Assembly: GCA_017467845.1 (NCBI GenBank)
Contig: JAFUKH010000032.1
Location: forward strand, 1-59,685
Length of the DNA stretch: 59,685 nt
Reading direction: 5' to 3'
From: Lachnospiraceae bacterium
GTDB taxonomy: Bacteria > Bacillota > Clostridia > Lachnospirales > Lachnospiraceae
Below, one piece after another: positions 7,894 through 12,655 of this stretch. The notes beneath the pieces are model-generated. The model was given only the letters and a program-made list of their open reading frames with translations, was not told the origin of the DNA and did not search any database. Each line of letters begins with the position of its first letter. Position 1 is the stretch's first letter. The position numbers and the translations under genes are program-made.

Positions 7894-7919
7894 TTTCATT
7901 CCCCCTTTTTATATCATAT

Positions 7920-7949
7920 GAATATTTTCCGAATAAGTAGACAATACTA
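7920..7949 (+). promoter_or_regulatory. Probable sigma-G/sigma-F-type promoter of sigG
   Basis: GAATA (7920-7924), 18-bp spacer, AATACTA (7943-7949). This matches the Bacillus sigma-G consensus (GMATR, N18, CATNMTA) at all but one position, which suggests autoregulation of sigG in the forespore. Confidence 0.55.
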
Positions 7950-7977
7950 CCTTCAAAAGAATGCGGAGGGTAAACAT

Positions 7978-8760
7978 ATGGCTATCGGAAAAGTTGAAAT
8001 TTGCGGTGTAAATACTGCAAAATTGCCCTTACTAAAGCAAGAAGAAAAGGAACAATTATTTGCAAAAATAGAAGAAGGAGACCAGGAGGCAAGAAATAGG
8101 TATATCGAAGGAAATTTAAGATTGGTACTGAGCATTATCAAACGATTCTCTTCCAGTAATGAAAATGTTGATGATTTATTTCAAATCGGCTGCATCGGCT
8201 TAATTAAGGCCATCGACCATTTTGATTCCTCATTAATGGTGCAGTTTTCTACCTATGCGGTTCCCATGATTATGGGTGAAATCAAACGATATCTACGAGA
8301 CAACGGAAGCAGTATCCGGGTCTCCCGCTCCTTAAAGGACACTGCCTACAAGGTTATCTATACCAGAGAACAGATGACGAAAAAGAATCTGAAAGAGCCC
8401 ACCATCGAAGAAATTGCCTCAGAAATTGGTATTTCTCCTGAGGATATTGTCTATGCCATGGACGCTATGCAGAGCCCCATGAGCCTATACGAACCTATTT
8501 ATACCGATGGTGGTGATACCCTATATGTAATGGATCAAATCAGTGATAAAAAGAGCAGTGAAGAAAATTGGGTAGAACAACTATCCATCGGTGATGCAAT
8601 AGAGCGTCTCTCCCCCAGAGAAAAGGAAATCATTACTCTGCGTTTTTTCGAAGGGAAAACCCAGACTGAGGTTGCAAGTTATATCGGAATCTCCCAAGCA
8701 CAGGTCTCCCGATTAGAAAAGAATGCATTAAAAATCATGCGATCATATTTAACCGCATGA
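7978..8760 (+). CDS. sigG: Sporulation sigma factor sigma-G
   Basis: Late forespore sigma factor. The 260-residue product begins MAIGKVEICGVNTAKLPLL, the diagnostic sigma-G N-terminus (KVEICGVNT). Region 2 has GNLRLVLSIIKRF, DDLFQIGCIGLIKAID and QFSTYAVPMIMGEIKRYLRD, region 3 has RVSRSLKD, and region 4 has LSPREKEIITLRFFEGKTQTEVASYIGISQAQVSRLE. The start at 7978 has GCGGAGGG 8 nt upstream. An in-frame ATG at 7918 is rejected because it lies upstream of and overlaps the promoter. It is the only plus-strand gene of the window and converges on the vanZ-like gene. Confidence 0.96.
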   Translation: MAIGKVEICGVNTAKLPLLKQEEKEQLFAKIEEGDQEARNRYIEGNLRLVLSIIKRFSSSNENVDDLFQIGCIGLIKAIDHFDSSLMVQFSTYAVPMIMGEIKRYLRDNGSSIRVSRSLKDTAYKVIYTREQMTKKNLKEPTIEEIASEIGISPEDIVYAMDAMQSPMSLYEPIYTDGGDTLYVMDQISDKKSSEENWVEQLSIGDAIERLSPREKEIITLRFFEGKTQTEVASYIGISQAQVSRLEKNALKIMRSYLTA

Positions 8761-8768
8761 CTTTCCTT

Positions 8769-9293
8769 CTAATCTCTTTTTTTCACTATAAGATGCACTA
8801 TGGTATAGATGATTAATCCAATCACCGTACCTAGTGCATTGGTGATGATATCATCAATCTGAAAATATCCCCTCTGGGTGATTAGCTGCATACATTCAAT
8901 GCCCCAGCTAAACAGTAGCCCCCATACAAGGCTGGTGAATATATTCCGCATTGCCGGAATACTCCATGCTGCCAGAAGGCCAAATGGAACAAATAAAATT
9001 ACATTCTCCACTACCAATGCCTTATTACGACTGTTGATTCCCCAAGTGGAACCGATTTCTAAGTCAAAGCCTAGTCTTGAACCGGATTCCCGGGATAAAA
9101 ACGTAATAATGATAATGGCAACAATATATGTACGAAACAGAGTGGTTGCAATCACAGGTCTTGGCATCTTCCCTGTAGTCTTCCGCCCGATATTCCCTGC
9201 CAGAGTAATCAACAGCATTCCAAGGGCGGCGATTCCCAGGTACGGCAAATAGAGAAACATCTCTCCAATGTCATTAATCAGATAACTGAGCAT
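8769..9293 (-). CDS. VanZ-like membrane protein
   Basis: A multi-pass membrane protein with the VanZ-like fold: about four or five hydrophobic segments, TFLSRESGSRLGFDLEIG, NVILFVPFGLLAA, and a final SWGIECMQLITQRGYFQIDDIITNALG, the most conserved VanZ element. VanZ itself gives low-level teicoplanin resistance; most relatives have no known function. The start is uncertain: the ATG at 9293 overlaps the upstream gene by 20 bp, and an ATG at 9341 gives a longer charged N-terminus. It converges with sigG, with 8 bp between the stops. Confidence 0.75.
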   Translation of the reverse strand: MLSYLINDIGEMFLYLPYLGIAALGMLLITLAGNIGRKTTGKMPRPVIATTLFRTYIVAIIIITFLSRESGSRLGFDLEIGSTWGINSRNKALVVENVILFVPFGLLAAWSIPAMRNIFTSLVWGLLFSWGIECMQLITQRGYFQIDDIITNALGTVIGLIIYTIVHLIVKKRD

Positions 9294-9615
9294 ATTCTTT
9301 CCAGCGTTCAGATGCCCGCTCCCATTTCTCCTTATCTTCAAATAATCTTTGATTCATCCACCGGATTGCATCTAAGATACCGTCCTCATCAAAGGAAAAG
9401 AAATTCTCCGTTTTGTCCTCCGATCTGGTATTAAAGTAGTTAAAAGGTTCCGGCCATACAGTGACCTTCAGCACCTTCTCCTCATCCTTCGTAGCCCCCT
9501 CCAGACGATACCGCATTCCCTGATGACACCCGGTGTATTCTGTTTTTTTCAAATATTCCATGGACAAAATGTCTTCTCTATTAATCACGATGCACAATCC
9601 TCTATTTCTATACAT
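9274..9615 (-). CDS. Hypothetical protein of up to 113 residues
   Basis: I do not recognise a family. Small, soluble, rich in aromatic and charged residues (KVTVWPEPFNYFNT, ENFFSFDEDGILDAIRWMNQRLFED), with no transmembrane segment. The 3' end overlaps the vanZ-like gene, so the two are probably co-expressed. A weak promoter (TTTTCA, 17 bp, TATACT) lies just upstream. That puts the ATG at 9615 almost at the transcription start; a GTG at 9588 with AGAGG 10 nt upstream is an alternative start. Confidence 0.6.
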   Translation of the reverse strand: MYRNRGLCIVINREDILSMEYLKKTEYTGCHQGMRYRLEGATKDEEKVLKVTVWPEPFNYFNTRSEDKTENFFSFDEDGILDAIRWMNQRLFEDKEKWERASERWKEYAQLSD

Positions 9616-9664: not shown

Positions 9665-10405
9665 TCAATTAATACTAATCATCTCTCGCTTCAGCCTCTT
9701 CATAATCTTTTTCTCTAATCGTGAGATATAGGATTGGGAGATCCCCAAAAGATCCGCAACTTCCTTCTGGGTCATCTCTCTTTCTTCTGCATCACATAGT
9801 CCAAAGCGAAGCTTAATTATGGTCTGCTCTCTGTCCGAAAGCTTCTCAATGGCCTTTTTTAGAACGCTTCGCTCTACTTCATTTTCAATTCCTCTGTAGG
9901 TGGTATCCTCTTCCGTTCCCAGAATATCAGACAAAAGAAGTTCATTTCCGTCCCAGTCCACATTCAGCGGCTCGTCGATAGATACCTCCATTCTGGTTTT
10001 GTTATTCTTACGAAGATACATTAAAATCTCATTTTCAATACATCTAGATGCGTAGGTGGCAAGCTTTATATTCTTATCCGGCTTATATGTATTGATAGAC
10101 TTAATAAGTCCAATGGTTCCGATAGATATTAAATCCTCTACCCCCACACCGGTATTGTCAAATTTCTTGGCAATATATACTACAAGTCTTAAATTTCTTT
10201 CAATCAGGATTGCCTTCGCTTCCCCTTCATATTCGGTTCCCAAATCCTGCAGTATCTGATTCTCCTCTGCCTGATTTAAGGGTGGCGGCAACACCTCGCT
10301 GCCTCCGATGTAGTGAATTTCTCCCCTCTTTTTCCGAAACACTCCATTGTCCCTGTAAGACACCTTCCATCTCGCCATTCCCGGCATTACAACTTTCCAG
10401 ACCAT
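9665..10405 (-). CDS. sigE: Pro-sigma-E from an internal start (alternative product)
   Basis: Early mother-cell sigma factor. In-frame internal ATG at 10405 with GGAGGGG 7 nt upstream, a better ribosome site than most in the window. The 246-residue product has a 31-residue basic pro-sequence before YIGGSE; the Bacillus pro-form has 27 residues before the same motif. Mature-part residues match sigma-E throughout, including [14 protein letters not shown]. It would be translated from the same mRNA as SpoIIGA, possibly by coupling, and processed by the SpoIIGA part of the same locus. Confidence 0.8.
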
Positions 10406-11215
10406 GTTCAATCCCCTCCATGCACTTTTCTTACTTTGCTGAAAGATTTCCGGATGAAGAATCATCCCAAACTCACTTTCCTCAGTTATTTCTTCACTGA
10501 TTGCTACATAAACATTAAAGAACTTATAATAAATTCCCTTTTTCTCAAAGTACATCATAGGAATAGGATACCCCTCCATAATTCCTCGCCGGTTTCCTAC
10601 ACTTGTGTAAGGAATCACACGCCCCCCCTTGGGTTTCCCGTCACGAAAAAGCATACGGGCATAACAGGCTCCTATTACACATACCGGCTTATCACTGATA
10701 GGCTCTATCAGTGAATTCCCACTATCTAAAAGACCTGGTAGCTGTAGCCTGTTACCTCCCCAGAAAAGGGTAACTCCCAGCTCTTCGTCCACCATTTCTT
10801 CCCTGAGATAACGTACTGCAATGAGCAGACACAAAGCTCCTCCTGCAATTGCACATGATGCCGTTCCCAGCCCCACATATAGGAATATAGGTCTTAGCAC
10901 AATGATTCCCCCTCCTAATATAAGGGTCAATAAGCTCATCTGCTTAATCATCTGTGCAAAGCCTTTTCTACTGTGGTGGCCAAAAGCAATACGAATCATT
11001 CCCAGAAAGGAAAGTACCATAAACGCCAACTTTCCCAATGTCCCCACACCCAATATATATGGGCAGCTTCCAATAATAGCTCCTGCCAAGGCACCTCCAC
11101 TAATCCTTCCGAAGGATGCCTGTAAAAGCATTATTCTTTGCAAGAGATACAACAAATATACGTTCAAGACCAAATGGATAATAAAAAGAATATCTAGATA
11201 AATCTCAACCTGCAT
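9665..11215 (-). CDS. SpoIIGA-sigma-E single reading frame (fused protease and pro-sigma factor)
   Basis: One uninterrupted 516-codon frame. Residues 1-260 are SpoIIGA: five or so membrane segments (to about residue 135) and an aspartic-protease domain with the active-site motif GLLDSGNSL (Asp164) and IPYTSVG. Residues 302-516 are mature sigma-[57 protein letters not shown], and region 4 ending [18 protein letters not shown]. In known spore formers these are two genes: SpoIIGA, in the septal membrane of the mother cell, cleaves the pro-sequence of sigma-E. Here the stop between them is missing. Residue 271 is an ATG with GGAGGGG 7 nt upstream, so a separate pro-sigma-E can also be made (see the internal feature). 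Whether full-length fusion protein accumulates cannot be told from sequence. Confidence 0.85.
10403..10418 (-). promoter_or_regulatory. Internal Shine-Dalgarno and start for pro-sigma-E
   Basis: Minus strand TGGAGGGGATTGAACATG: GGAGGGG with a 7-nt spacer to ATG 10405-10403, inside the SpoIIGA-SigE frame and in the same phase. Confidence 0.8.
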
Positions 11216-11351: not shown

Positions 11352-12548
11352 TTATTTCTTCTGCAAGAAATCGGGAATCTTTAAGGATTTCTCTTCTACA
11401 TTGCTGCGGATATCTGTTGGCTTATTGATACCGATAATCGGTTTAATCGGCGCAGTACCTGTCGGTACGGTATTCGCAGTACTTGGTTTCAGAACAGAAG
11501 TAGGGATATTTAACCCCTTCATAGTAGGAGGTGCTACATGAGTAGTAGGATTCACATAAGCAAGTCCTGCTCCCACACGTCCGGAAAGAGTAGGTGTTGA
11601 ACCCTCCAAACCGGTTGCAATAACGGTAATAGAACAAGTGTCGGACTTAGACTCATCATACATTGCACCAAAGATAATGTTAACATCATCTCCTGCAAGC
11701 TCCTGAACGTATCCAACTGCATCAGATGCATCTGCAAGAGTAATATCACCGGATACATTGATAATAACATGGGTAGCACCGGAAATAGTAGTCTCTAAGA
11801 GTGGGGACTCCACTGCCATCTTAACAGCCTCAAGTGCCTTATCATCGCCCTTACCATCACCGATACCAATGTGAGCAATACCCTTGTCCTTCATAACAGT
11901 CTGAACGTCTGCAAAGTCAAGGTTAATAATAGAAGGTACATTAATAAGATCTGTAATACCCTGTACTGCCTGCTGAAGAACTTCATCTGCCTTCTTAAGA
12001 GCCTCCGGCATGGTAGTTCTGCGGTCAACAATTTCTAACAGTTTATCATTAGGAATTACAATTAATGTATCCACATTTTCTTTAATCTTTTCAATACCGC
12101 TTAAAGCATTTACCATACGGGTCTTTGCTTCAAAACGGAAAGGCTTGGTAACGACACCAACGGTTAAAATCCCCATTTCCTTAGCAACACGCGCTACAAC
12201 GGGAGCTGCTCCGGTACCGGTTCCACCGCCCATACCACAGGTAACGAATACCATATCCGCACCCTTTAATGCCTCTGAAATATCTTCTACGCTTTCCTCT
12301 GCAGCCTTCTCACCAACCTCAGGCTTAGCTCCTGCACCAAGTCCCTTAGTAAGCTTCTCACCAATCTGAATGTGCTTTGGTGCCTTACAAAGAGTAAGTG
12401 CCTGCTTATCTGTATTGATTCCAATAAACTCTACACCGTCAATTTTCTCATCTATCATTCTATTAACAGCATTATTACCTGCTCCGCCGACACCTACGAC
12501 AATAATCTTTGCAGCAGCCTCTGCTTCGTTTGTCTTAATTTCCAACAA
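11352..12548 (-). CDS. ftsZ: Cell division protein FtsZ
   Basis: Tubulin-like GTPase that forms the cytokinetic Z-ring. GTP-binding [13 protein letters not shown] near the N-terminus, tubulin signature [12 protein letters not shown]7-loop NLDFADV, and a C-terminal tail ending [11 protein letters not shown]. Start: TTG at 12548 has AAGGAGG 8 nt upstream and gives MLEIKTNE, like relatives; the ATG at 12566 has no proper spacing to any Shine-Dalgarno. The product is then 398 residues. It is the last gene of the division cluster and is followed by a strong terminator. Confidence 0.97.
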
Positions 12549-12655
12549 AGGTTTGTCCTCCTTCATCCTCGCATAAATTCCATATATTTTATCATATAAT
12601 TAAATTCTAAAATACGCAACACATTTTTTCCACATTTAAAAATATTTTTATCGCA

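Follow-up and report, generated by a model that had tools for sequence, protein, structure and literature searches.

In Bacillus subtilis, SpoIIGA is reported to be an aspartic protease, which responds to the forespore protein SpoIIR by cleaving off a pro-sequence of 27 residues (PMC13174948). The route from the SpoIIR signal to SpoIIGA-dependent cutting of pro-sigma-E is described as still under study, and spoIIGA and sigE as co-transcribed in the spoIIG operon (PMC13174948). The locus considered here lies in a stretch of 59,685 nucleotides from a Lachnospiraceae bacterium, which was analysed as a whole and is called the window; it resembles spoIIG in that it encodes both proteins in identical order, with the pro-sequence and the aspartic protease. 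The spoIIG operon of B. subtilis consists of two separate genes, whereas a single frame that contains an internal start is present in the window. Other members of the window's genus have the same operon, in which sigE starts inside or just after spoIIGA. Unlike the window, they place the genes in different frames or have a stop between them, so that no fusion protein arises. There is a general class of genes in which an in-frame internal start yields a short product beside the long one, and the window locus is like them in having one frame, two starts and a short product that is the C-terminal part. We know of no member of this class whose long product links a developmental protease with the sigma factor which that protease activates. 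A report of a SpoIIGA-SigE fusion was not found in the titles and abstract beginnings of the open PubMed Central collection, and passages of PMC13174948, PMC3533761 and PMC3416734 do not mention one.

The features of the locus are listed below. G000 is the genome of the window, G026 is a different species of the same genus, and A1 is an alignment of 50 rows.

9665-11215, minus strand: fused spoIIGA-sigE open reading frame, 516 aa (translation, Pfam, NCBIfam, G026 alignment)
10445-11206, minus strand: SpoIIGA membrane and protease part, residues 4-257 (PF03419 and hydropathy)
10724-10726, minus strand: codon of the predicted catalytic Asp164 in LLDSGNSL (invariant in A1)
10406-10444, minus strand: linker, codons 258-270, where in-frame relatives carry their stop (relatives' junctions, G026)
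9665-10405, minus strand: pro-sigma-E frame from the internal ATG (codon 271), 246 aa (sequence, G026)
10313-10405, minus strand: pro-sequence, codons 271-301, with the predicted cut at His301/Tyr302 (invariance in A1; 27-aa pro-sequence of B. subtilis, PMC13174948)
9668-10312, minus strand: mature sigma-E, residues 302-516 (Pfam and NCBIfam)
10413-10419, minus strand: internal Shine-Dalgarno sequence GGAGGGG (sequence; kept in G026)
10414-10446, minus strand: predicted hairpin pairing the internal Shine-Dalgarno sequence, inside a 37-nt identical run (prediction, no covariation)
11352-12566, minus strand: ftsZ, upstream neighbour (also in G026)
7918-8760, plus strand: sigG, convergent neighbour (also in G026)

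The initial annotation had described one frame of 516 codons without a stop between spoIIGA and sigE. This was confirmed; the frame starts with ATG, lies on the minus strand and contains a complete SpoIIGA protease and a complete sigma-E. PF03419 (Peptidase_U4/SpoIIGA) matched residues 4-257 over its entire profile (1-284 of 284) with 139.3 bits against a cut-off of 28.4, and Pfam placed sigma-70 region 2 at residues 337-406 and region 4 at residues 455-509 of the fused protein. Two NCBIfam equivalog models identified the sigma part as SigE, TIGR02835 and NF006158, which scored above cut-off at 381.7 versus 339 bits and 367.2 versus 348.6 bits, in that order. Asp164 (motif DSGN), to which the annotation had also pointed, is present, and the Asp is invariant in the 50 rows of A1; we take it to be the catalytic residue, as in the SpoIIGA family generally. 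Tyr302-Ile303-Gly304-Gly305 at the cleavage region is invariant in A1 as well, and the placing of the cut additionally uses the B. subtilis residues which we presume to flank it there. By hydropathy, the window protein has four hydrophobic segments and the G891 protein five, all of them before residue 150, which would leave the protease and sigma parts on the same side of the membrane. The computed masses are 58.1 kDa for the full product and 28.3 kDa for the 246-residue pro-sigma-E. A second SpoIIGA or SigE was not found in the window's genome, a draft of 2.99 Mb in 105 contigs that is 85.8% complete, and the next best match to SigE there (49% identity) is a different sigma factor, probably SigK. 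Among the best 60 of 82 matches to known structures (E 0.01), none covered the SpoIIGA half; all hit the sigma half.

The same fusion is present in G026, with 516 codons, no gaps, no stop and 97 amino-acid differences. The two genes share 81% protein and 77% DNA identity, and 229 of 516 third codon positions differ; by part, the counts are SpoIIGA 120 of 257, linker 1 of 13, pro-sequence 6 of 31 and mature sigma-E 102 of 215. For mature sigma-E, dN is 0.026 and the synonymous distance is too large to compute. Judged from these substitutions, the fused frame is under purifying selection, which is strong on sigma-E. The gene order in G026 (ftsZ, the fusion, a VanZ-like ORF, sigG and nrdR) is that of the window. 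In the window, the region 7918-9615 holds the VanZ-like ORF and an ORF without a family match between the convergent sigG and sigE.

The window's genus was searched in 138 genomes, and the locus was read at the DNA level in the 126 that have a piece with sigE. Full-length matches without a stop came from G000 and G026 alone among the matches listed. At the DNA level, 2 of the 122 genomes with both genes readable are fused and 120 have separate genes; 4 of the 126 were left out for want of SpoIIGA in the sigE piece, and 12 of the 138 for want of such a piece. The wider set for DNA-level screening comprised 373 loci, 57 without a sigE match and 7 with sigE and no SpoIIGA match. Open-frame length alone was misleading as evidence of fusion. 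For example, long open frames raised suspicion in G073, G130, G012, G019 and G318, whose genes proved separate at the DNA level. Also, the upstream part of a 563-residue open frame in G234 is not SpoIIGA, which lies there in another frame.

The annotation's premise that a stop normally separates the two genes held only in part: the stop is absent in the window, but elsewhere the genes do not always share a frame. Among 229 unfused loci, a set in which some genomes are counted twice and the query favours in-frame relatives, spoIIGA shares the frame of sigE in 82, with one or more stops, and lies in the other two frames in 55 and 92; the group of 92 overlaps sigE by a median of 41 nt. Only one in-frame stop separates the genes in 51 of the 82 in-frame loci. 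Although these loci are a single stop away from fusion, fusion is rare, so most lineages seem to keep the stop. In two unfused loci of the second family described below, L346 (G988) and L367 (G917), spoIIGA passes the sigma-E cleavage site in another frame, reaching 35 nt and 110 nt, respectively, beyond the IGG codon.

Wider screens were made at the levels of family (single sequence query; 397 genomes, 253 matched), order (392, 276 matched), class (391, 277 matched) and phylum (383, 319 matched), the last three with a profile from A1. Among the matches listed in these four screens, one further fused group was found, genus g456 of f41, another family of Clostridia, and no fusion lay outside the two groups. 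The genus is represented by 12 genomes. Nine carry a full-length fusion, G1217 carries one that is ended by the contig end, G988 is unfused and G1214 gave no match, so that 10 of 11 sigE-bearing species are fused. Four other f41 genomes have separate genes at the DNA level. In G857, the sole g456 member scanned with Pfam, both SpoIIGA and sigma domains were found. The catalytic motif of this group is DTGC, with the Asp kept, and its linker is loosely conserved. The probability of a stop-free linker in five lineages of the group was estimated at about 0.001 from base composition if they are independent, which is a best case because they are related. On a quick tree of 98 rows, built from SpoIIGA and mature sigma-E without the linker and pro-sequence and with SH-aLRT support only, the two fused groups stand apart; the fused state takes three changes, of which at least two are forced by the starred branches. 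This tree points to independent evolution of the fusion, at least twice, in two groups of Clostridia that are only distantly related. The third change would be either a loss of the fusion in G988 or a separate gain in G1218. The comparison with relatives, which the annotation had proposed as a check, shows the stop to be missing both in G026 and in the fused g456 genomes.

The internal ribosome site that the annotation had proposed is as described: GGAGGGG, a 7-nt spacer and an ATG at 10403-10405, which is codon 271 and the normal start of pro-sigma-E. G026 has the identical GGAGGGG and the ATG, although its spacer differs in 4 of 7 nucleotides (ATTGAAC versus AAAGCAT). A run of 5-7 nt resembling a Shine-Dalgarno sequence, with an ATG at the normal pro-sigma-E start, is found in 12 of 12 fused genomes, with a longer spacing in G1218. 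Since this start is kept in all of them, free pro-sigma-E is probably still made from it.

The junction is more conserved than mature sigma-E at third positions. Between G000 and G026, 7 of 45 of these differ in codons 258-302, whereas mature sigma-E has 102 differences in 214 (Fisher p 5e-5). A pro-sequence this conserved occurred in 0 of 2324 unfused genus pairs matched for mature sigma-E divergence, and in 0 of 426 pairs matched for SpoIIGA divergence too; these control pairs lack independence, and their SpoIIGA has on average diverged somewhat further. Equally conserved spoIIGA ends occurred in 296 of 2324 and 204 of 426 control pairs, many of which overlap sigE. In addition, a run of 37 nt (10412-10448) is identical in the two genomes, whose DNA differs by about 23% across the gene, and such a run was reached in 77 of 5000 codon shuffles. 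The predicted hairpin lies within it, and in the predicted fold the probability that the Shine-Dalgarno sequence is unpaired is 0.17 in G000 and 0.21 in G026. Values as low were obtained for 4 of 107 unfused loci of the genus and for 0 of 20 with a strong Shine-Dalgarno sequence. The region folds no better than shuffled sequences (z -0.54 and -0.83). A general rule of a hairpin hiding the Shine-Dalgarno sequence was rejected, as the second group is inconsistent (unpaired probability 0.17-0.90). For the window pair, the hairpin is a possible device of translational coupling. The 37 nt also contain an off-frame stop common to both genomes, a TAA of the -1 frame in the linker; the +1 frame has a shared stop early in the pro-sequence. 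An overlapping third gene at the junction was considered and rejected, because each of the two species has several off-frame stops, which partly coincide in position, and because G026 interrupts the longest off-frame stretch seen in G000.

SpoIIR was sought in both groups. No genome of the window's genus, fused or not, passed the PF09551 cut-off (0 of 138, the genus being the scope of that search), and TIGR02837, applied to five genomes of the genus (G000, G050, G026, G078 and G106), matched none of them. Most genomes of the genus have kept SpoIIGA and SigE despite the undetected SpoIIR. In a family sample, 46 of 100 genomes passed the TIGR02837 cut-off, and many of the others may not sporulate at all. 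In g456, TIGR02837 matched in 10 of 11 sigE-bearing genomes, including 9 of 10 fused ones, and 9 of 11 were above cut-off; G1031 had no match. The idea of the fusion as a bypass of SpoIIR was rejected, since SpoIIR is undetected throughout one genus and yet present in the second fused group. By these profile searches, SpoIIR status does not explain the fusion. In the window's genus, SpoIIR has either diverged beyond recognition or been replaced by another signal.

The annotation's two-product interpretation is partly supported by the absent stop, the conserved internal ribosome site and the recurrence of the fusion in relatives, and we consider it somewhat probable that one frame yields two products, a membrane SpoIIGA-linker-pro-sigma-E polyprotein and free pro-sigma-E, both cut at the normal site. 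Ribosomes starting at spoIIGA would meet no stop until the end of sigE under the standard code and would make a membrane-anchored polyprotein, and others starting at the ATG at 10405 would make free pro-sigma-E of normal length. The predicted hairpin of the window pair may keep the internal ribosome site closed until translation of spoIIGA unfolds it; the output of free pro-sigma-E would then be coupled to that of the protease. Activated SpoIIGA would cut both the fusion and free pro-sigma-E at His301/Tyr302, and the cut in the fusion would release mature sigma-E of 24.6 kDa and a 33.6-kDa SpoIIGA with a tail of linker and pro-sequence. More tentatively, the polyprotein may be the working form, a covalent protease-sigma zymogen in the septal membrane, and free pro-sigma-E would then be a second pool, coupled through translation. 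On the forespore signal such a zymogen would release sigma-E by cutting itself or a partner, and it would not need to search for its substrate.

How far the fusion has a role of its own depends on how the loss of the stop is read. The stop-free linkers that persist at high synonymous divergence in two lineages argue for such a role; the rarity of the fusion, the loose linker and the conserved free start suggest that it may be only tolerated. Under a neutral loss of the stop, free pro-sigma-E would do the work and SpoIIGA would merely trim a harmless C-terminal extension. The internal start kept in every fused genome would fit this, as would the loosely kept linker of the second group and the variable C-termini of SpoIIGA, seen in the 92 loci that overlap sigE in another frame and in the spoIIGA frames of G988 and G917. 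It is nevertheless rather unlikely, considering that the stop-free state has been held in both lineages though single substitutions could create a stop. It is also conceivable that a frameshift of the ribosomes or a cut in the mRNA comes ahead of the junction, so that hardly any fusion protein, or none, arises. The shared -1 TAA would end SpoIIGA about where relatives end, and the shared +1 stop is placed early in the pro-sequence, but off-frame stops are common by chance and a classical slippery heptamer was not seen by eye at the junction, which makes this explanation quite improbable.

A decaying sporulation locus in a non-spore-former might be suspected from the undetected SpoIIR in G000 and G026. 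The probability of decay is very low, given that sigma-E is under strong purifying selection, that spoIVA and sigG are present in both genomes, and that SpoIIR is equally undetected across the genus and present in the second fused group. An artefact of sequencing or assembly, for instance a frameshift or stop that was overlooked, would be a natural concern for an incomplete draft of 105 contigs, but G026 has the same frame without an indel beside the same ftsZ, VanZ-like, sigG and nrdR genes. The 10 further fused genomes of another genus already refute an artefact, and the chance of one is negligible.

A fusion of enzyme and substrate that has arisen repeatedly in nature suggests that tethering is compatible with development. 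The two-product locus would offer a defined construct for probing cutting in cis versus in trans, stoichiometry and membrane recruitment, and it makes testable whether it matters that a developmental protease is physically tied to its substrate.
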